Of a DNA stretch of 64,000 nt, positions 1-9,123 are shown piece after piece. Position 1 is the first letter of the stretch. Each line of letters opens with the position of its first letter. The notes beneath the pieces are model-generated. The model was not told where the DNA came from, searched no databases, and worked only from the letters and a program-made list of their open reading frames with translations. The stretch covers positions 1,550,001-1,614,000 of the forward strand of contig NC_018002.1 in the NCBI RefSeq assembly GCF_000265295.1, read 5' to 3'. This stretch comes from Sulfurospirillum barnesii SES-3 (GTDB lineage Bacteria; Campylobacterota; Campylobacteria; Campylobacterales; Sulfurospirillaceae). The translations under genes and the position numbers were made by a program.

Positions 1-1
1 C

Positions 2-61
2 ATTATTGAAAAACTAGGAAAAACCCTAATTAATGAGGTCTTTCATGAGCCTTCCTTATGA
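2..61 (+). CDS. C-terminal tail of an upstream gene (partial)
   Basis: A frame open from base 2 reaches a TGA at 59-61 and gives a 19-residue tail ending FHEPSL. It overlaps the start of the restriction endonuclease by 17 bases, which suggests translational coupling. Genes in this position are usually the partner DNA methyltransferase, and Sau3AI-type systems pair with a cytosine-5 enzyme. The visible tail carries no diagnostic motif, so that identity is inference from context only. Confidence 0.4.
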   Translation: MIEKLGKTLINEVFHEPSL

Positions 62-1442
62 TATAACCGACAAACAATCCATCATCAATTTTGCTAAAAA
101 GCTTCTTGGTAAGACATTGCGAGACATATGTGACTTAGTTGCACCCAACGCCTCTTTAGATAAAGGAAGTTTTGGAAAGATACTGGAAAAATTTTATTTT
201 CTTTACGAACCCAATTCAGATGCACAACCTGATTTTAAAGAAGCTAAATTAGAGCTAAAATCAACACCTCTAAAACAATTAAAAAAGAAACAATACCGCT
301 CAAAAGAGCGCCTTGTCCTTAACATCATCAACTACATGGATGTTGTTCATCAACATTTTGAGGAGAGTGCATTTTTGAAAAAAAATGCTCACCTACTTCT
401 AATTTTTTACCTACACACGAAAGATACATCTGTGTTAGATTACGTCATTAAACTTGTCGATGAATGGAAGTTTCCTGATGCTGATTTGGAAATCATCAGG
501 CAAGATTGGGAATTTATTCAAAAAAAAATACGAGCTGGTAAAGCCCACGAACTCTCAGAAGGGGATACATTTTATTTAGGTGCATGTTCCAAAGGAGCAA
601 CGGCTCAAACAACACGCCAACAGCCTTATAACACCATTCTTGCAAAACAAAGAGCTTACTCTTTAAAGCAAGGCTATGTGAATCATATCATTGCTTCGTT
701 AGCAAAACACAAAACAGAAGTCTATGGAAAACTCATTACGCAAAGCATATTGCATCAAAAGCCCTCTATTGAGGAGATTGTTATCGAAAGATTTACGCCC
801 TATTACAACCAATCTTTAGAGCAAATTCTTGAGCATTTTGACTTCAAACTCAATCGAAAATCAAAAAATTTCTATGCCAATCTCACCAAAGCAATCTTAA
901 AAATCGACCTTAAACACGCCATTGAAGAATTTGAAAAAGCTGATATTATCGTGAAAACCGTAAGGCTAAAAGAGAACAACTTACCCAAAGAAGATGTCTC
1001 TTTCCCTGCATTTGAATACACACGCCTCCTTGAAGAAACATGGGAAGAGTCCGAGTTTAAAGCCATCTTAGAACATAAATTTTTATTTGTTTTTTTCCAG
1101 TTTGAAAACAATCAATTGTTCCTACGAAAAGTTAAATTTTGGAATATGCCCCATGCTGACATTGAGGCATCGCAAAAGGTTTGGCTTGAAGCTAAGCGTG
1201 TTATTCAAGAAGGAAATATCGTCAAGAAGATTTCTAACAAACGATATTACACTCATTTTCCCAGTAAAAAATTTAGTACCATCGCCCATGTAAGACCTCA
1301 CGCTAAAGATAAAGACGATACATATCCATTACCTACCCTCGACCAACTTACAGATAAAAATAACTATATGAAGCACTCGTTTTGGTTAAATAACCAATAC
1401 ATCAAAGATAAAATCTATCTATTGCCCAAGGAAGTCTTATGA
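45..1442 (+). CDS. Sau3AI/MutH-type type II restriction endonuclease
   Basis: Cuts unmodified DNA at a short palindrome; founding members of the family (Sau3AI) recognise GATC, but the specificity here is not provable from sequence. The N-terminal half carries the MutH-type nuclease signature: an acidic residue in GKILEKF, then D63 and E70-x-K72 in the stretch PDFKEAKLELKSTP. The C-terminal half ends with the family's second conserved region, HVRPHAKDKDDTYPLP followed by SFWLNNQYI. At 465 residues it matches the two-domain, pseudo-dimeric length of Sau3AI (about 490). ATG at 45 is preferred over the in-frame ATG at 33 because GAGG lies 6 bases upstream. It overlaps both neighbours, so it is probably transcribed with the presumed methyltransferase. 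Confidence 0.88.
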   Translation: MSLPYDITDKQSIINFAKKLLGKTLRDICDLVAPNASLDKGSFGKILEKFYFLYEPNSDAQPDFKEAKLELKSTPLKQLKKKQYRSKERLVLNIINYMDVVHQHFEESAFLKKNAHLLLIFYLHTKDTSVLDYVIKLVDEWKFPDADLEIIRQDWEFIQKKIRAGKAHELSEGDTFYLGACSKGATAQTTRQQPYNTILAKQRAYSLKQGYVNHIIASLAKHKTEVYGKLITQSILHQKPSIEEIVIERFTPYYNQSLEQILEHFDFKLNRKSKNFYANLTKAILKIDLKHAIEEFEKADIIVKTVRLKENNLPKEDVSFPAFEYTRLLEETWEESEFKAILEHKFLFVFFQFENNQLFLRKVKFWNMPHADIEASQKVWLEAKRVIQEGNIVKKISNKRYYTHFPSKKFSTIAHVRPHAKDKDDTYPLPTLDQLTDKNNYMKHSFWLNNQYIKDKIYLLPKEVL

Positions 1443-1630
1443 ACGGTAACACCCGCTCTTCCATCACCAAAGGACTCAAAATCAAAATCGTCTTAAAAGC
1501 TGACCAACGCACGGGCAAGCTTATAGAGGGCATTGTTAAAGACATCTTGACCAACTCTCCTACGCATCCGCATGGCATCAAAGTGAGGCTGGAGAGTGGT
1601 GAAGTGGGGCGTGTGAAAGAAGTATTGTGA
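1439..1630 (+). CDS. YwbE-family small protein, copy 1
   Basis: A 63-residue protein of the YwbE family (DUF2196), whose biochemical role is not established. The signature is a basic N-terminal half with IKIVLKADQRTGKL, then VKDILTNS and the C-terminal HPHGIKVRLESGEVGRVKE. It looks like a small beta-barrel (KOW/Tudor-like) fold that could bind nucleic acid, but that is inference. The ATG overlaps the endonuclease stop (ATGA) and its own TGA overlaps the next start, so it is embedded in the operon. A close paralogue with the same C-terminal half lies at 6105-6302 on the other strand. Confidence 0.85.
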   Translation: MNGNTRSSITKGLKIKIVLKADQRTGKLIEGIVKDILTNSPTHPHGIKVRLESGEVGRVKEVL

Positions 1631-2226
1631 ACGCATTTATCTCAGGTTTTAGTCTTGGAATTTCACTTATCTTAGCCATTGGGGCGCAGAATGCTTTTGT
1701 GCTCAAACAAGGCATTAAAAAAGAGCATGTGTTTGTCATTTGCTTTGTCTGTGCGCTTTCTGATGCCATTTTGATTTTTGCAGGGGTTTCGGGTTTTGGG
1801 TATTTGGTGGAGCAGTTTCCTTCCCTTCAAACTTTTGCTCGTTATGGTGGTTTTGCTTTTTTATGTGTTTATGGATTGAAGAGTTTTTACTCGGCGTGGC
1901 GTATGTCGCATGAGCTAAAACCTGAGGGTATCACACCGCCAACGCTTTTAAAAACCATACTCTTAACCCTCGCCTTTACATGGCTAAACCCTCATGTGTA
2001 TCTGGATACCGTCATTTTACTAGGTTCCGTTTCGACTAAATTTGGAGAAAGTGCGCCTTTGTTTGGTTTTGGGGCGATGAGCGCTTCGTTTGTCTTTTTC
2101 TTCTCTTTAGGCTATGGCGCACGGCTTTTGGCACCCTTGTTTAAAAAGCCTCTTGCGTGGAAAATTTTAGATGGGCTTATTGGCATAGTGATGCTCTCTT
2201 TGGCATGGATGCTCTTAGCATTCTAA
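1627..2226 (+). CDS. LysE/ArgO-family amino acid exporter
   Basis: Inner-membrane exporter of basic amino acids (lysine or arginine) or related compounds. The 199-residue length, about six hydrophobic segments, N-terminal LAIGAQNAFVLKQG and central TWLNPHVYLDTV are typical of LysE/ArgO proteins. Translation starts at GTG, overlapping the YwbE stop as GTGA, so the gene is coupled to the restriction locus although no functional link is obvious. The substrate cannot be fixed from sequence; the LNPHVYLDT motif favours the LysE/ArgO branch over RhtB. Confidence 0.85.
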   Translation: MNAFISGFSLGISLILAIGAQNAFVLKQGIKKEHVFVICFVCALSDAILIFAGVSGFGYLVEQFPSLQTFARYGGFAFLCVYGLKSFYSAWRMSHELKPEGITPPTLLKTILLTLAFTWLNPHVYLDTVILLGSVSTKFGESAPLFGFGAMSASFVFFFSLGYGARLLAPLFKKPLAWKILDGLIGIVMLSLAWMLLAF

Positions 2227-2300
2227 GCTTTATGTGCAAAATCTTACAAAATACCTAGTTTTGGACTCTTTATCTCTGTAATTTTTATTTGAATATATTA

Positions 2301-2309
2301 TGCTAGAAT
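2301..2309 (+). promoter_or_regulatory. Extended -10 promoter element
   Basis: TGCTAGAAT is a TGn-extended -10 hexamer with no clear -35, as is common in Campylobacterota. It is about 43 bases upstream of the PhnD-like gene at 2352 and follows the end of the exporter gene, so it probably starts the 2352-5485 transcript. Confidence 0.45.
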
Positions 2310-2351
2310 GAGGCACTTAAAAAAATACATTCCCTAAGAATTGAGATGTGC

Positions 2352-3212
2352 ATGCGTATACAACACCTTCTTTTTTGCTTATTATGCGCTTCCATGCTTT
2401 TAGCAAAAGAGTACACTTTTGCCATTTTCCCCTCCAATACACCTGCAAAAATCACACAAGCACTCACCCCTTTAATGCACTACCTCAGTGAACAAAGTGG
2501 CGATACCTTTCAACTGGTCATTACCAAAGATTACGAAGAACTGGCACAACGTATCAGAGAAAAAAGTGTTGATTTTGCTTGGGTAAATACGAAAAATTTT
2601 GTTCTTCTCAAAGAAGAAATTCCCTCCTTACATTACCTTGTAACCTATTTGGAACACTCTAAAAATGGAGACATTACCCCCTATTATCAGGCGTTTATTA
2701 TTGCGCATAAACCATCCCATATTCAGACTTTAGATGAAGCCAAAGATAAGTATTTTGCCTTTACCGACAAAGATTCCACTTCAGGCTATGCTTATCCTAT
2801 GCTCATTTTTCAAGAACATAACATCAATCCCTACACCTTTTTTAAAAAAATATTTTTTCTTAAAAAACATGATAAAGTCATTGAAGCACTGATGAGTCAC
2901 TCCATTGAAGCAGGAGCTGTTTCGGATGGAACGTATTACAGTGCTTTTGAAAAATACGGCGATGCCTTTACCATTCTAGCACGCTCCAAACCTATTCCAT
3001 TGGATGCCATTGTTGCATCTGAACATATTGGGGCACACGAGAGTGAACGCATTGCGCATATCCTTGAACGTCTTAGCACACACTCCGCATCCACTGAAGC
3101 ACTCAAAGAACATTTAGGATGGGATAGCGCAGGGTTTATGCGAAAAGACAGTGCCTTTTATGAAACGTTTAAACAAACACTCAAAGCATCTACACATGAA
3201 TCTCTACAATAA
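2352..3212 (+). CDS. PhnD-like periplasmic substrate-binding protein 1
   Basis: Periplasmic binding protein of the phosphate/phosphonate/phosphite (PhnD) type. An N-terminal signal peptide (MRIQHLLFCLLCASMLLA) is followed by the mature fold, with the ligand-site stretch FAFTDKDSTSGYAYP near residue 140, where D-S-T-S-G is the family hallmark. ATG at 2352 is chosen because GAG lies 6 bases upstream; an in-frame ATG at 2346 is less well placed. There is no ABC permease or ATPase nearby. Instead the gene overlaps a diguanylate cyclase and is followed by a second PhnD-like protein, so a sensory rather than transport role is likely. Confidence 0.82.
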   Translation: MRIQHLLFCLLCASMLLAKEYTFAIFPSNTPAKITQALTPLMHYLSEQSGDTFQLVITKDYEELAQRIREKSVDFAWVNTKNFVLLKEEIPSLHYLVTYLEHSKNGDITPYYQAFIIAHKPSHIQTLDEAKDKYFAFTDKDSTSGYAYPMLIFQEHNINPYTFFKKIFFLKKHDKVIEALMSHSIEAGAVSDGTYYSAFEKYGDAFTILARSKPIPLDAIVASEHIGAHESERIAHILERLSTHSASTEALKEHLGWDSAGFMRKDSAFYETFKQTLKASTHESLQ

Positions 3213-4674
3213 AGTCCTTTTTCTCTCATTCCTACAACTAGGAACCATCTTTGTATTTGGAATCTACCAAATACAATCTTTATACCTGACACAAAAAAGA
3301 GCCTTTGACCAAAAAAATGTCATGCAAGCAGAAGTCATCCAAAAACGCTTTGAAGAGAAGCAACAAAGCTTACAAAAAACAGCCCATATTCTTATTAACT
3401 CGCAAGAGGTCATCACAGGAATTCTAAGCCACGATACCGATATGCTGTACAATTGGAGCAAACTTTTTCTCTCTTCTACGTCTGAGAAAATTCATTTTAT
3501 GGATTTAGACGGTACGATCATTAGCCGAGGGGAAGCTGAATTTAATTTTGGCGATGATACCTCACAACGCTTTTATGTGCGTCAAGCCCTTCAAAACGAT
3601 ACCTTTTTGGGTATTGACTTCGTGGATGGAGAAGAGTGTTTAATTTATGCAAAACGTGTGAAACAGTATGGGCAAAGACCTATTGGAGTTATTAGTCTTG
3701 CTATTGTCATTGACAATGCCTTTTTGAACACTTTAGTACAAGACACCAGCATGACCATGACCTACACCTCCACCCACCAAACTCTTTCGACTTCAATAGA
3801 ACCATTTTTGCCTCAGGCGCTCTCGTCTTCTTTACATGTAACCTTCCAAACAGGTGGTGCAAAAGATGCTAACTTTAGTATTAGCCCTTCTTCAGAAGAG
3901 GAGCTTTATGCCCTTAAAGAAGCACGTAACACCTTTTTAATCGGCATCTCTTTAGCACTATTGATTCTGATGTTAGCCTTGCATTTTACACTGCTTAAAC
4001 ACTTAAAAGAGCACAAAGCACTCTCTCTCGTCTTGATTGATTTTTACGAAGACCGTCTTAGCATACACGATCTTATGAGAGCCATCAAACATACCTTGCA
4101 TCAACACACCACCCCTGAAATCAAAAAAATTGCAGAAGCCTTGTTTAACATGAGCGAGAAAATAGCACACACACAAACAGCCCTTGAACACTCAAGCACA
4201 ACCGACCAACTCACCGCCCTTGCCAATAGACGCAAAGTTGAAGAATATTTAGAACAAAAAATAGAAGAGAGCAAACGGGGTGCTTTTTTTTCAATTATTA
4301 TGATAGATATTGACCATTTTAAAAACATTAACGACACCTATGGGCATGCGATAGGTGACCATGTTCTTATTCATACCGCACGTCTAATGAGTGCGTCCAT
4401 TCGAGAAAGTGACATGCTGGGGCGTTGGGGTGGAGAGGAGTTTTTACTGATTTTACCCAACACGCCTCTTGATGGGGCATTACGCATTGCTGAACACATC
4501 CGTGCCACCCTACACCAACACACCTTTGAGCACTACCCTGAGTTTTTAAGCATGAGCCTAGGTGTTGCAACACACCAGCCAAACGATACTTCAAAAACCA
4601 TCTTAAAACGTGCCGATAACGCACTCTATAAAGCCAAAAATGGCGGAAGAAATCAGGTACAACATGAAAGTTAA
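3196..4674 (+). CDS. Membrane-bound diguanylate cyclase with periplasmic sensor domain
   Basis: Makes cyclic di-GMP from two GTP. An N-terminal membrane helix (NKVLFLSFLQLGTIFVFGIY) is followed by a periplasmic region of about 215 residues that looks like a CHASE4/Cache sensor (HFMDLDGTIISRG, RFYVRQAL). A second helix near residue 245 and a linker then lead to a C-terminal GGDEF domain. The active site reads GGEEF, and the inhibitory I-site RESD sits 5 residues before it, so the enzyme should be active and product-inhibited. The ATG at 3196 overlaps the end of the upstream PhnD-like gene by 17 bases; earlier in-frame ATGs would overlap further. The two flanking binding proteins probably present a ligand to its sensor domain. 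Confidence 0.88.
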   Translation: MNLYNKVLFLSFLQLGTIFVFGIYQIQSLYLTQKRAFDQKNVMQAEVIQKRFEEKQQSLQKTAHILINSQEVITGILSHDTDMLYNWSKLFLSSTSEKIHFMDLDGTIISRGEAEFNFGDDTSQRFYVRQALQNDTFLGIDFVDGEECLIYAKRVKQYGQRPIGVISLAIVIDNAFLNTLVQDTSMTMTYTSTHQTLSTSIEPFLPQALSSSLHVTFQTGGAKDANFSISPSSEEELYALKEARNTFLIGISLALLILMLALHFTLLKHLKEHKALSLVLIDFYEDRLSIHDLMRAIKHTLHQHTTPEIKKIAEALFNMSEKIAHTQTALEHSSTTDQLTALANRRKVEEYLEQKIEESKRGAFFSIIMIDIDHFKNINDTYGHAIGDHVLIHTARLMSASIRESDMLGRWGGEEFLLILPNTPLDGALRIAEHIRATLHQHTFEHYPEFLSMSLGVATHQPNDTSKTILKRADNALYKAKNGGRNQVQHES

Positions 4675-5485
4675 TTTTTTTCTAAAGATTGCATTTTTTC
4701 TCTGCTTATCCCTGTATGCCCATGCAAAACAAAGCCTTGTGTTTGCAGTCAATCCGTATAAAAATACTGAAGAGTTGCGCACCCAACATGCAGAGCTGAT
4801 TGGCTATCTTGAAAAAGCATTGCAAAGAGAGATTGTTTTTATTGTCTCAAAAGATTATACGCATTTACTCACACTCATTGAGCAGGGCAATGTCGATATT
4901 GCTTCCATTTCGCCCAAACTCTTTGCAACATCTCGTCAAAAAAAGATTCCAACACACTACCTTGCAACCTTTAAAATACAAGACCATCAAGGCAACGCAC
5001 GCTCAAGCTATCGTAGTCTCATCATCACACGCCAAAAAAATTCGCTTCAAACCCTTAACGATGTCAAAGGAAAACGCTTTGGTTTTACCGATGTTGATTC
5101 CACCTCAGGCTATCTCTACCCACGGTTTATGCTCAAACAAGAGGGGATAGACCCTCAAAAAGAGCTTGGTAAAGTTTATTTTCTCAAAAAACACCCAAAA
5201 ATCATGCAGGCACTTTTGGAAAATTCCATTGACGCAGGAGCCATTTACGATGGCATTTACCTAACACTTCCCAAAAGTGAAAAAGAAGAAATTCGTATTC
5301 TTGCCAGCTCAGATGAGATACCTTATGATGTTATGATTGCCTCTAAAGGTGTCGATAAGGCTCTTGTCACTAAAATTCGTGAACTGCTCTTAGCGTTTCA
5401 CTCCACACAATCAGCACCCAATACCATTATGGGATTTGAAGAAAAATCCCTCATTCTTTATGATACCCTTCTTTATTTAGAGTAG
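4664..5485 (+). CDS. PhnD-like periplasmic substrate-binding protein 2
   Basis: A second PhnD-type binding protein, clearly related to the one at 2352. A signal peptide (MKVNFFLKIAFFLCLSLYAHA) precedes the fold, and the ligand-site stretch FGFTDVDSTSGYLYP is nearly the same as in copy 1. The ATG at 4664 has AGGT 5 bases before it and overlaps the cyclase stop by 11 bases. The shared DSTSGY motif but otherwise divergent sequence suggests the two proteins recognise different but related ligands, or are a receptor and a competitor for the same sensor. Phosphonate, phosphite or another oxyanion ligand is possible; none can be assigned. Confidence 0.8.
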   Translation: MKVNFFLKIAFFLCLSLYAHAKQSLVFAVNPYKNTEELRTQHAELIGYLEKALQREIVFIVSKDYTHLLTLIEQGNVDIASISPKLFATSRQKKIPTHYLATFKIQDHQGNARSSYRSLIITRQKNSLQTLNDVKGKRFGFTDVDSTSGYLYPRFMLKQEGIDPQKELGKVYFLKKHPKIMQALLENSIDAGAIYDGIYLTLPKSEKEEIRILASSDEIPYDVMIASKGVDKALVTKIRELLLAFHSTQSAPNTIMGFEEKSLILYDTLLYLE

Positions 5486-5504
5486 CACGCTCTTCTCAAA
5501 GCGC

Positions 5505-6092
5505 TTACTTGCGATGCCCTCGAAAAAAAGAGGAGAACATTGAGTATTTCTGCTCTTCCATGGGAAAACTAGGATCACTTGCATGACGCACATCTTCAAT
5601 GGAATAAACGGCTAGAGGATTGTATTTGCCAATTAAAGAGCGCACTCTCTCAATGTCGGCTCGTTTGATGACGGTAAAAATAACACTGACAATCCCATTA
5701 TTGCCCTCTGCATCAGCAACGGTAACACTGTAACGAAGAGCGCGAAGAGAACGGACAAGCTCATGGGAATCTTTTTTGGTAATAATCCGAATCACCACCA
5801 TCCCAAGTGCCAAACGACTCTCAATAAACATTCCAATGTAATTGCCCAAAGAAAATCCCAGAGCATAGGCGATGTAATTAATGGGATTGGTCAGGTTTGC
5901 CATGACTTTAGAAATAGCCATAAGCCAAATGCTCACCTCAAAAAAACCTAGTATGGGTGCCCAAAGGCGAAGTCCCTTCGAGACAAAAATAATGCGAAGT
6001 GTGCCAATACTCACATCCAGTATACGAGCAAGACAAATGAGCAAAGGAATCCCATACAAACTAAATGCTTCGCTTGCAAAAAATTCGCTCAT
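5505..6092 (-). CDS. DUF2179/DUF5698 membrane protein (UPF0316 family)
   Basis: A 195-residue inner-membrane protein. Three hydrophobic segments fill residues 10-100 (RILDVSIGTLRIIFVSKGLR is typical of UPF0316), followed by a soluble C-terminal DUF2179 ligand-binding-like domain. No function is established; the DUF2179 fold is thought to bind a small ligand. A very strong ribosome site (AGGAGGAGG) precedes the ATG. It lies 12 bases downstream of the second YwbE gene and is probably transcribed with it. Confidence 0.8.
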   Translation of the reverse strand: MSEFFASEAFSLYGIPLLICLARILDVSIGTLRIIFVSKGLRLWAPILGFFEVSIWLMAISKVMANLTNPINYIAYALGFSLGNYIGMFIESRLALGMVVIRIITKKDSHELVRSLRALRYSVTVADAEGNNGIVSVIFTVIKRADIERVRSLIGKYNPLAVYSIEDVRHASDPSFPMEEQKYSMFSSFFRGHRK

Positions 6093-6104
6093 ACCGTCCT
6101 CCTC

Positions 6105-6302
6105 CTAAAGAATAATCTCTTTCACACGTCCGACTTCACCGCTTTCGAGTCGCACTTTGATGCCGTGGGGATGATTGGCAGAATTGGTGAGAATGTCTTT
6201 GACCACACCTTGCGTTAGTTTTCCACTGCGTTGGTCTTCTTTTAAAACAATCAAAACCTTAACACCCTTATGAATGTTGCTTCTGCTTTGCCCTGCGCTC
6301 AT
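6105..6302 (-). CDS. YwbE-family small protein, copy 2
   Basis: A 65-residue paralogue of the gene at 1439. The VKDILTNS block and the stretch HPHGIKVRLESGEVGRVKE are identical in both, while the N-terminal 15 residues differ. At the DNA level the two copies have diverged clearly in third positions, so this is an old duplication rather than a recent repeat. AAAGGA precedes the ATG. Function unknown. Confidence 0.83.
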   Translation of the reverse strand: MSAGQSRSNIHKGVKVLIVLKEDQRSGKLTQGVVKDILTNSANHPHGIKVRLESGEVGRVKEIIL

Positions 6303-6358
6303 TGTTATCCTTTATATGTCTTGGCTCTATTATACACATTTTTCTTTACATGTAAAGC

Positions 6359-8149
6359 TTAACGAAGCCTCATACACAAGGCTAAAAATGCTTCACCGTA
6401 GCGCTCAAACTTCACCTCACCCACACCACTGACTTCCAACATTGCCTCTTTGTCATGAGGAAGTTTTTCAGCCATCTCTTTGAGGGTTTTATCGCTAAAA
6501 ACCACATACGGCGGAATGCCATTTTCTTGAGCAATTTCCAAACGCAAGGCACGTAATTTCTCAAAAATGGAAAGCTCAAACGCTCCTGTAACCACTTTCG
6601 TCGCTTTTTTAGAGACTTTTTTACGCTCTTCCAAACGCTTCGCATGCATGCTTACATGTAAACGCTCTTTGATGATTTGAGCTCCATATTCACTAAGACT
6701 CACCACACGGTATTCGCCAACTTTTAACGCTTCAAGCTCCAAAAGTCTATCGCCAATGCTAAGCCACTGCGCCTTACTTCGCTCTTTCCCAATGCCATAA
6801 ACGGAGAGGTTTTGATGCGCATTTTGCGCTATTTTTTCATTATTTGCACCCATTAAAACATCAATGACGTATTGCAGTCCAAAGCGTTGCCCTGTGCGGT
6901 ACACACAAGAGAGTAGCTTTAATGCCTCGTTTGAGATGTCAACACTCTGCTTTTCACCCTCCACACAGTTATCGCAACGGGTGTTACATGTAAGAATGGT
7001 ATCGTCAAAATAGGTCGCTATTTGTTGATGACGGCACAGCTGAGATGTTGCAAATTTTGCCATAGCTTCTAGCTTTTCATAGGCTACCTTTTGGTACTCC
7101 GAGGCAGGCTGTTCGCTGATGCGTCGTTTGTGCTCCACTATGTCGGAGGCTGAAAAAAGAAGCAAGGTTGAAGCACTCAGACCGTCTCGCCCTGCACGCC
7201 CTATTTCTTGGTAGTAATTTTCAATGGTTTTTGGCAGTGACATGTGCACCACAAAACGAATATTGCTCTTATCAATCCCCATACCAAAGGCGATGGTTGC
7301 AACCACCACGTCAATTTCATCGTTTAAAAAAGCACGGTACGTTTCGTTTTTCTCCTCAGTAGAAAGCCCTGCATGATACGAGCGTGCACGCACTTTGTAC
7401 CCTTCTAAAAACAGCGCCAAACTCTCCGTCTCTTTGCGTGTCAATGTATACACAATACCACTCTCATTTTGAAACGCACTTAAAAAACTCAAAAGTTGCT
7501 CACGCCCGTTGGCATTGCGATAGTCCGCTTTGATGTTTAAATTGTCCCGCTCGACTTTGGCTCGAATGATTAAGGGGTGTGACAATCCGAGCTGATGCAA
7601 AATATCGTGTTCGACAATTTTCGTTGCTGTCGCCGTAAATGCAGCAATGGGAGTACGAGGAAAGTAGTGTTTAAGACGAAAGAGTTGACGGTAATCTTCT
7701 CTAAATTCATGCCCCCACTCGCTCACACAATGCGCCTCGTCAATGACAAAAAAGTTGATGCAAAGGCTCTGTAAGAAGTTTAAAAACGACTCACCCTTTA
7801 AGCGTTCAGGTGCAACGTATAAAAGTTTAAGCTCACCGTTGCGACACGCTTGCATACTCTCTTGTATCTGAGAGGGAGATTGCATGGATGAAATCATCGC
7901 CGCTTTAATGCCAAAGGCAGAGAGTGCGGTGATTTGGTCGTGCATGAGCGCTAAAAGCGGTGAAATCACCACGCTCATGCCCTCCATTACAAGAGAGGGA
8001 AGCTGATAACACAAAGACTTCCCTGCTCCTGTGGGTAAAATCATCATAAGGTCTTTATGCGCTAAAATCGCATTGACAGCCTCTTCTTGATTGGCTCTAA
8101 AGCTGTGGTGCCCAAAGACACGTTGAAGAATATCGTATGTTTTATCCAC
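6359..8149 (-). CDS. recQ: RecQ-type ATP-dependent DNA helicase
   Basis: Unwinds DNA 3'-5' in recombination and replication-fork repair. The helicase core shows motif I (MILPTGAGKSLCYQLP, residues 37-52), DEAH box (FVIDEAHCVSEWGHEFR), motif V (VVATIAFGMGIDKSNIRFV) and motif VI (QEIGRAGRDG). A zinc-binding RQC region (CRHQ...CNTRCDNC) and a C-terminal HRDC domain (LRALRLEIAQENGIPPYVVFSD) follow. The start is a GTG directly after the thioesterase stop, with no good ribosome site, which suggests coupling. Length 596 is normal. Two TTACATGTAA copies lie inside (6652, 6985). Confidence 0.93.
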   Translation of the reverse strand: MDKTYDILQRVFGHHSFRANQEEAVNAILAHKDLMMILPTGAGKSLCYQLPSLVMEGMSVVISPLLALMHDQITALSAFGIKAAMISSMQSPSQIQESMQACRNGELKLLYVAPERLKGESFLNFLQSLCINFFVIDEAHCVSEWGHEFREDYRQLFRLKHYFPRTPIAAFTATATKIVEHDILHQLGLSHPLIIRAKVERDNLNIKADYRNANGREQLLSFLSAFQNESGIVYTLTRKETESLALFLEGYKVRARSYHAGLSTEEKNETYRAFLNDEIDVVVATIAFGMGIDKSNIRFVVHMSLPKTIENYYQEIGRAGRDGLSASTLLLFSASDIVEHKRRISEQPASEYQKVAYEKLEAMAKFATSQLCRHQQIATYFDDTILTCNTRCDNCVEGEKQSVDISNEALKLLSCVYRTGQRFGLQYVIDVLMGANNEKIAQNAHQNLSVYGIGKERSKAQWLSIGDRLLELEALKVGEYRVVSLSEYGAQIIKERLHVSMHAKRLEERKKVSKKATKVVTGAFELSIFEKLRALRLEIAQENGIPPYVVFSDKTLKEMAEKLPHDKEAMLEVSGVGEVKFERYGEAFLALCMRLR

Positions 8150-8653
8150 TTAAAGTTCTATCTCATCTCTATCTTTGCCATCGCTTGCAAACCACTCATC
8201 TTCGATAAAATCACTCTCCACAATCTGTGTGACATTGCGTTTCATATAACGCCCTGAGGCAATAACGGCTACTTCGCCATTAGGGAGTATCAGCTCACCC
8301 GTACCTTCAAAAATACGCCCTTTATCGCTCACGATGCGCCCAATGACTTTAAGCTCTACATCCAAAGGAACAGGCTTTTTATATTTTAAGTTTAACTCTA
8401 GGGTCACACCAAAACTCTCTTGCCCGTAATGCGCCATAATAGCACGCCCAATGGTTTCATCTAAAATGGTCGCTGAAATGCCACCGTGTAAAATGTTTGG
8501 GTAACTTTGCAAATAGGTATGCCCTGTAAAATACCCCACCACTTCCTTGTTTTCGAGTTCATAAAATTTCGTTTTTAAGCCCAAAGGGTTTTCAATGCCA
8601 CACACCAAACAGTTTTTGGAGATGTGCTGTTTGCCTTTTACTTTAAATGTCAC
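8150..8653 (-). CDS. Hotdog-fold thioesterase (PaaI/DUF4442-like)
   Basis: Probably hydrolyses an acyl-CoA thioester. Residues 45-115 show the hotdog pattern of PaaI-like enzymes: PNILHGGISATILDETIGRAIMAH, in which the H-G-G and the downstream acidic residue mark the active site, followed by the KYKKPVPLDVELKVIGRIV strand region. An N-terminal C-x2-C pair (NCLVCGIENPLGLK) is common in this subgroup. Translation starts at GTG, overlapping the upstream stop as GTGA. Substrate unknown. Confidence 0.82.
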   Translation of the reverse strand: MTFKVKGKQHISKNCLVCGIENPLGLKTKFYELENKEVVGYFTGHTYLQSYPNILHGGISATILDETIGRAIMAHYGQESFGVTLELNLKYKKPVPLDVELKVIGRIVSDKGRIFEGTGELILPNGEVAVIASGRYMKRNVTQIVESDFIEDEWFASDGKDRDEIEL

Positions 8654-9123
8654 TCCTGCTCTCCATGCACCTTTTCAAGTTCTTTGCGCACTTTTGAGTA
8701 AAGTTTTAAATCAACAATTTTGTAGCTTTTCAAAAGAGCATCTAAAAGTGCAGTATTTAGCTCTTTTTGGTCATTTTTATCTTCAGGAATGATTTTATCT
8801 TTTACGCCACAGTTGTTGCAAAAATCAAATAAATAGGTCGCATTAATCTCATAATCCAAACGGTGCGTCACATCATTTTTAAGCTTTCGTGTCTCGTTCA
8901 TGATAACAAACTCTTGCTCACTAATTGTTTTAAGTGCCCGTAACTCTTCAAGCAATTTAAACTGTGTCATACTACGAGAAGTCCCAGGAATCAACACTTC
9001 TGCAACAAATTCATAATACGCTTCCACCGCTAAAATCATCATATAAAGGTTTTTACCCCGTGGATTCTCTTCTTGTTCAATAAAATCTTTAAAATAGTGC
9101 AGTTTTTGCATCTCTACCATCAT
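8650..9123 (-). CDS. Conserved hypothetical, mostly helical protein
   Basis: A 157-residue soluble protein I do not recognise firmly. It is predicted to be almost all alpha-helical, and the stretch NETRKLKNDVTHRLDY resembles the R-x4-H region of HEPN/DUF4145-like proteins; this is a weak visual match. Its ATG overlaps the rhlE stop (ATGA), and its own stop overlaps the thioesterase start, so rhlE, this gene, the thioesterase and recQ form one transcription unit. Confidence 0.7.
   Translation of the reverse strand: MMVEMQKLHYFKDFIEQEENPRGKNLYMMILAVEAYYEFVAEVLIPGTSRSMTQFKLLEELRALKTISEQEFVIMNETRKLKNDVTHRLDYEINATYLFDFCNNCGVKDKIIPEDKNDQKELNTALLDALLKSYKIVDLKLYSKVRKELEKVHGEQE

Follow-up and report, generated by a model that had tools for sequence, protein, structure and literature searches.

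A predicted diguanylate cyclase with a dCache sensor between two PhnD-like proteins in Sulfurospirillum barnesii: a probable binding-protein-gated signalling unit

What does a diguanylate cyclase do when its gene lies between the genes of two PhnD-like periplasmic binding proteins? The question is raised by a locus of Sulfurospirillum barnesii SES-3, whose 2.51-Mb single-contig genome contains the window analysed here, a stretch of 64,000 nucleotides (nt) at positions 1,550,001–1,614,000. PBP1 (2352–3212), DGC (3196–4674) and PBP2 (4664–5485) follow one another on the plus strand of the window, and the overlap of all three genes, pointed out in a first-pass annotation of this DNA, amounts to 17 nt for PBP1/DGC and 11 nt for DGC/PBP2. 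The trio is read here, with a probability of roughly 0.7, as a binding-protein-gated diguanylate cyclase in which PBP2 would be the core partner and PBP1 a second, dispensable input. By means of it, the cell would probably sense one or two phosphorus-like ions in its environment.

PBP1 (286 amino acids, predicted to be secreted, with an N-terminal signal peptide-like stretch) and PBP2 (273 amino acids, likewise predicted to be secreted) are PhnD-family solute-binding proteins, matching Pfam Phosphonate-bd (PF12974) at 1.4e-49 with 169 bits and at 2.3e-55 with 188 bits, respectively (cut-off 27). The nearly shared motif noticed at first reading is FTDKDSTSGY in PBP1 and FTDVDSTSGY in PBP2. DGC (492 amino acids; ATG at 3196, stop at 4674) is predicted to contain a first transmembrane (TM) helix, a periplasmic dCache domain, a second helix (TM2), a linker helix and a GGDEF domain (Pfam GGDEF, 2.5e-48), in agreement with the earlier description of a membrane cyclase with a periplasmic sensor between the two binding proteins.

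The same trio was sought in other genomes and was found in 11 of 24 Sulfurospirillum genomes, searched with residues 1–330 of DGC, as well as in one genome of another family (G309). Within the genus, DGC is present in 14 genomes, three of which contain DGC and PBP2 only (L021, L022 and L030). In profile searches, the genomes with a PBP1 orthologue (E <= 1.4e-165) coincided exactly with the 11 that have the trio, and those with a PBP2 orthologue (E <= 7.7e-130) with the 14 that have DGC; the remaining matches were much weaker, and neither orthologue was detected in any of the 10 genus genomes lacking DGC. Assuming independence, which related genomes do not have, such co-occurrence would arise by chance at 5e-7 for PBP2 with DGC and at 1.5e-4 for PBP1 within the DGC genomes; it is not due to chance. 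The gene overlaps are equally constant, that of PBP1/DGC deviating only in L032 (14 nt; identical in the other 10 trios) and that of DGC/PBP2 only in L030 (14 nt; identical in the other 13 loci). Because PBP2 is never missing from a DGC locus, it is taken as the core partner, and the PBP2-only state of 3/14 genus genomes indicates that two inputs are not obligatory.

Two of the PBP2-only loci, L021 and L022 (S. diekertiae type), were compared with L023, yielding identities of 66% for the sensor, 58–59% for PBP2, 70–71% for the GGDEF domain and 91% for the flanking RecQ. Faster evolution following PBP1 loss was considered and set aside, since the GGDEF domain is low as well; replacement or general divergence may equally account for these values. 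In the third, L030 (genome G013, 1340–6416, minus strand), genes for a GGDEF-EAL protein and an SBP_bac_3 protein come after the DGC–PBP2 pair, which gives two pairs of binding protein and cyclic di-GMP (c-di-GMP) enzyme in series.

Could the two proteins instead serve an ATP-binding cassette (ABC) transporter encoded elsewhere, with DGC merely co-transcribed? PhnD-family proteins are classically transporter subunits, and the genome does contain a Phn transporter about 245 kb away, so that a remote client, named earlier as what would overturn a signalling role, had some basis. That transporter, however, has its own PhnD, encoded beside PhnC and two permeases. As stated in the first-pass annotation, no ABC transporter genes were found near the trio: among the open reading frames of positions 1–9000 of the window, there are neither permease nor ATPase genes. 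PhnE exceeded its family cut-off in only 4 of the 24 genus genomes (G000, G005, G006 and G008) and was absent above it from 7 of the 11 trio genomes (G001, G009, G010, G011, G012, G014 and G023); the firmer count is five, each at least 94% complete, because G012 and G023 are 78% and 92% complete. The Phn transporter is thus unlikely as the client. Together with the finding that neither PBP1 nor PBP2 orthologues ever occur without DGC in the genus, this makes the transport explanation very improbable.

How might a binding protein be read by the cyclase? The sensor domain (residues about 30–240; 3286–3915) was examined in an AlphaFold model of DGC residues 1–328 (mean predicted local distance difference test score, pLDDT, 83.7). 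The model has a tandem Cache fold between two TM helices, which defines it as a dCache domain, and its structural matches include the KinD dCache domain (4jgq; Z 16.2, root-mean-square deviation (rmsd) 3.1, 192 aligned), a domain of a Vibrio GGDEF protein (2p7j; Z 14.1, rmsd 3.6, 202 aligned), LuxQ (2hje; Z 13.1, rmsd 4.1, 184 aligned) and LuxQ in complex with LuxP (2hj9; Z 12.7, rmsd 3.8, 181 aligned). By sequence, the Pfam dCache_3 match was sub-threshold (19.6 bits, cut-off 25.7), and searches of the sensor against the PDB returned nothing useful. The sensor is accordingly modelled as a dCache domain with the fold of LuxQ. TorS was not among the structural matches listed, which is no evidence against a shared principle.

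The output appears intact. The GGDEF domain (4198–4656) contains GGEEF, the active-site motif of cyclases, and RESD, an instance of the inhibitory-site motif RxxD; GGEEF, with RxxD five residues upstream, was found in 14/14 orthologues, so that DGC is a predicted diguanylate cyclase with its active-site motifs preserved. The 27 GGDEF domains and one PilZ protein of the genome indicate that signalling by c-di-GMP, a messenger that switches bacterial lifestyle, is present.

Does the sensor keep its binding protein outside the genus? A sensor profile run over 397 campylobacterial genomes identified three more genomes: G309, where a PhnD-like gene lies on both sides of DGC, and G387 and G254, each with DGC and one binding protein. 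The order to which the Desulfobulbus genome G406 belongs (193 genomes) gave three matches at E <= 1e-15 (L056, L054 and L139), all with a PhnD-like gene just upstream of the receptor; only L139 (genome G552) is an independent test, as the other two had been reached via the binding protein and were included in the profile. Non-genus genomes reached by the sensor alone thus have a PhnD-like neighbour in 4/4 cases (G309, G387, G254 and G552). The L139 receptor contains HATPase, receiver and PAS domains; HisKA was matched only weakly (19.8 bits, cut-off 26.9), and CHASE4 at 26.6 bits (cut-off 26.2). The L056 receptor reads as a similar hybrid histidine kinase, and that of L054 is cut by the contig end. 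The same sensor on hybrid kinases beside PhnD-like genes (L056 in Desulfobulbus and L139 in G552) suggests that binding protein and dCache domain form a transferable module, whose parts stay together when outputs are exchanged. A broad spread of the sensor in Campylobacterota was rejected: a wider profile, A4, matched 142/397 genomes (E <= 0.001), with at most five candidates scored per genome. Among the matches listed, those covering most of the model came solely from the same 14 genomes; the others listed fell mainly on TM2 and the linker (about positions 200–328), with a few other short pieces, and were left out of the counts.

These data also bear on the explanation that the dCache domain of DGC binds its own ligand directly, the PhnD-like proteins only buffering, delivering or competing for it without docking as the signal. 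PDB entry titles record the dCache domains of DctB, Tlp3, PctA-C and KinD, all close structural matches, as solved with small ligands, consistent with such binding. Against it stand the obligate one-to-one linkage to PBP2, the conserved gene overlaps and the finding that, in a second phylum, the same sensor lies beside PhnD-like genes but has a different output; direct sensing is considered improbable.

PhnD-like/cyclase pairs also occur with other sensors. A PBP2 scan of genome contigs gave 71 loci, seven in Sulfurospirillum and 64 elsewhere; in 6 of these 64 (L064, L067, L071, L082, L084 and L085), all Myxococcota or delta-proteobacterial, a GGDEF gene directly precedes the PhnD-like gene. 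The sensors of those six showed no match to the trio sensor, and in two that were scanned, GGDEF and HAMP were found, with sCache_3_2 above cut-off in one. Six separate loci with unmatched sensors indicate that such pairs occur more than once. In S. barnesii itself, L035 (4173–6635, plus strand; about 1,889,000–1,892,000 of the genome) encodes an 820-amino-acid protein with a PhnD-like region, a TM stretch and GGDEF, by its predicted architecture a fused version of the binding-protein/cyclase idea.

What do the binding proteins bind? The AlphaFold (AF2) model of PBP1 (pLDDT 91.6) has a type II binding-protein fold (Z 23.6–27 to ArrX, HtxB, PtxB and PhnD). Its VIA Z scores were 27.3 for ArrX, 27.2 for HtxB, 26.5 for PtxB, 24.8 for XAC2383, 24.4 for PhnD and 24.2 for AioX, scores less than 1 apart counting as ties. 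The profile searches gave ArrX (4.8e-19) as the closest solved protein for PBP1 and PtxB/PhnD-type entries (5jvb, 1.2e-21; 5lv1, 1.5e-20) for PBP2. AioX and PhnD share the oxyanion residues Tyr88, Tyr131, Ser161, Ser163 and His192 in AioX numbering (PMC5908839). In alignments to AioX, this Tyr, Tyr, Ser, Ser, His set is invariant in 11/11 PBP1 and 14/14 PBP2 sequences. The loop S142-T143-S144-G145 of PBP1 (2775–2786), with S142-T143-S144 present in all 11, aligns at those three residues to Ser161-Asn-Ser163 of AioX, and its counterpart in PBP2, S146-T147-S148-G149 (5099–5110), is invariant in all 14. The neighbouring positions differ. The place of AioX Cys106 is taken by Asn79 in 11/11 PBP1 and by Ser83 in 14/14 PBP2, and that of Asp210 by Tyr195 in 11/14 PBP2 and, depending on which of two alignments is used, by Ser191 or Asp192 in PBP1, so that the flanking positions are N79/S191/D192 in PBP1 versus S83/P84/Y195 in PBP2. 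With shared core residues and differing neighbours, both proteins look like oxyanion binders of different fine specificity. The original suggestion of nearly the same ligand for both is plausible as far as the core residues go; the pocket positions beside them are not shared.

An arsenic sensor of the ArrX/AioX type was rejected, since the pocket cysteine is absent from both PBP1 and PBP2, even though no solved structure is closer to PBP1 than ArrX; a cognate histidine kinase and response regulator are likewise lacking, the partner being a GGDEF protein. Elsewhere in the genome, L034 (2,358,000–2,370,000) contains a PhnD-like gene (5102–5974, minus strand) with the pocket residues Tyr, Cys, Tyr, Ser, Asn, Ser, His and Asp, neighboured by genes for a histidine kinase, a sigma-54 regulator, an NrfD-like protein, a molybdoenzyme and an FeS protein. 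Judged from its genes, this is a putative arsenic-type XSR cluster, and arsenic sensing probably has its own system in this organism.

Is PBP1 then needed at all? In a tree of 37 proteins, PBP1 grouped with the upstream protein of G309 (100/99), PBP2 with the downstream proteins of G309, G254 and G387 (91/86), and the two clades were sisters (94/90, below the starred level); long-branch rows fell outside this part of the tree. The PBP1/PBP2 pair thus probably derives from one duplication before the two families split, followed by repeated loss of PBP1. Such losses, which never affect PBP2, would suit an explanation in which PBP2 alone signals and PBP1 is a silent or decoy paralogue heading for loss. 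Where present, however, PBP1 shows conservation no lower than that of PBP2 (mean column identity 85% over 11 rows versus 74% over 14 rows, the latter including more divergent ones); the residues of its core pocket do not vary, and it was already there before the families separated. A silent PBP1 is therefore regarded as unlikely.

Several observations weigh against a gated cyclase with two inputs. PBP1 is missing in 3/14 genus loci and in 2/3 of the other campylobacterial loci. A comparison of sensor residues with the presence of PBP1 gave no clear signal: positions common to all trio loci and L044 and altered in at least three of the four PBP1-less loci number seven, compared with three and four in control groupings. 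Other ABC permease matches, below the PhnE cut-off, occur in 24/24 genus genomes and are possible non-Phn clients. Moreover, adjacent binding-protein and receptor genes can lack contact between their products, and dCache domains often bind small ligands directly.

On balance, a binding-protein-gated cyclase is preferred. PBP1 and PBP2 would each close around a small oxyanion of tetrahedral shape, with those of phosphorus (phosphite, phosphonate or a phosphate-like ion) as the most likely ligands, and in one of their states would dock on the periplasmic dCache domain of dimeric DGC. The movement would pass via TM2 and the linker helix and switch c-di-GMP synthesis. PBP2 would be the fixed core partner, and PBP1, the old paralogue lost in some lineages, would act as a second input for another ligand or with opposite sign. 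The earlier view of a signalling unit in which ligand sets c-di-GMP synthesis is thus well supported by gene linkage, the PhnE-less trio genomes, the LuxQ-like dCache domain and the PhnD-like/kinase loci; agonist/antagonist sensing by the two binding proteins, proposed along with it, is kept as a hypothesis. A more specific form, possible yet doubtful, is a two-input comparator, in which PBP1 and PBP2 would recognise a pair of similar oxyanions (phosphite or phosphonate versus phosphate or arsenate, for example). The two proteins would compete for one dimeric dCache receptor or sit on different halves of it, and DGC would read their ratio and not a single concentration.

Which known systems resemble the trio? 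TorT–TorS, chosen in the first-pass annotation, is less close than LuxP–LuxQ, AioX–AioS/ArrX–ArrS, XAC2383–XAC2382 and NspS–MbaA. It also ties a binding protein to a sensor, but with kinase output and another class of binding protein. In LuxP–LuxQ (PDB 2hj9, 1zhh), a dCache-fold periplasmic sensor is read by a binding protein, as proposed here, although LuxP is of another binding-protein class and LuxQ is a hybrid kinase. In the Trg chemoreceptor, ribose- and galactose-binding proteins share one membrane receptor, in the way proposed for PBP1 and PBP2; its output is chemotactic signalling, and its binding proteins also serve transporters. AioX–AioS and ArrX–ArrS employ PhnD-fold sensing proteins not tied to transport, whose Tyr, Tyr, Ser, Ser, His set is kept in PBP1 and PBP2; they differ in the pocket cysteine, replaced by Asn79 and Ser83, and in having a kinase in place of a cyclase. 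XAC2383–XAC2382 of Xanthomonas citri is reportedly described as a receptor–diguanylate cyclase pair in a 2018 J. Biol. Chem. paper, in which a PhnD-family binding protein is said to be encoded with a membrane cyclase, as in the trio. The PBP1 model matched the XAC2383 structure (5ub3) with Z 24.8, rmsd 2.8 and 254 aligned, and PBP2 matched 5ub3 by sequence at 4.1e-8 (related entry 5ub7); the Xanthomonas pair reportedly has a single binding protein, unlike the two paralogues here. NspS of V. cholerae, when loaded with norspermidine, associates with MbaA and stimulates the cyclase activity of MbaA; it dissociates without norspermidine or on spermidine detection (PMC8967002). There, too, a periplasmic binding protein controls a membrane c-di-GMP enzyme, a control proposed for the trio from its genes. 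NspS, however, is a polyamine binder of another family, MbaA contains GGDEF and EAL, and the two ligands exert opposite outputs through one binding protein.

The trio hence belongs to a known kind, the binding-protein-controlled c-di-GMP enzymes, exemplified by NspS–MbaA and, reportedly, XAC2383–XAC2382. As far as our searches go, the following is new: the placement of paralogous binding proteins on both sides of a single cyclase, the probable old PBP1/PBP2 duplication with repeated loss of one copy, and the occurrence of this sensor on a kinase in a different lineage. To our knowledge, most diguanylate cyclases have no known signal; the trio, with a recognisable pocket in both binding proteins, offers a short list of candidate ligands, and trio versus PBP2-only genomes constitute a natural experiment on two binding proteins sharing one receptor. 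Literature searches, with most subscription journals outside their coverage, returned no paper recognised as dealing with this trio or with a PhnD-like protein and a diguanylate cyclase. In one review, SBP_bac_3, a domain of RmcA, is the only member of the binding-protein clan given as studied in c-di-GMP networks (PMC8846402).

Upstream of PBP1, the AT-rich element TATATTATGCTAGAAT (2294–2309, plus strand) aligns with a TATTATG-type element before most trio loci (MAFFT alignment of the upstream regions of 14 loci) and is a possible −10 promoter region. A promoter consensus scan gave promoter-like sites near it at about chance level and none at 2294–2309 itself, and a terminator scan of the locus gave chance-level hits only. 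By eye from their translations, the upstream neighbour encodes a LysE-exporter-like protein, and the convergent downstream neighbours encode a small membrane protein and a RecQ-like helicase.

PhnD-like domains were also seen in other architectures. In Myxococcota and relatives, L055 (assigned by Pfam) and L057 and L063 (by eye) combine a Ser/Thr kinase-like region, a TM stretch and a C-terminal PhnD-like domain. In Geosporobacter, L058 (4864–6747, plus strand) encodes a chemoreceptor signalling domain with a PhnD-like domain C-terminal to it; no TM stretch is apparent by eye between the two, so that this PhnD-like domain may be cytosolic.

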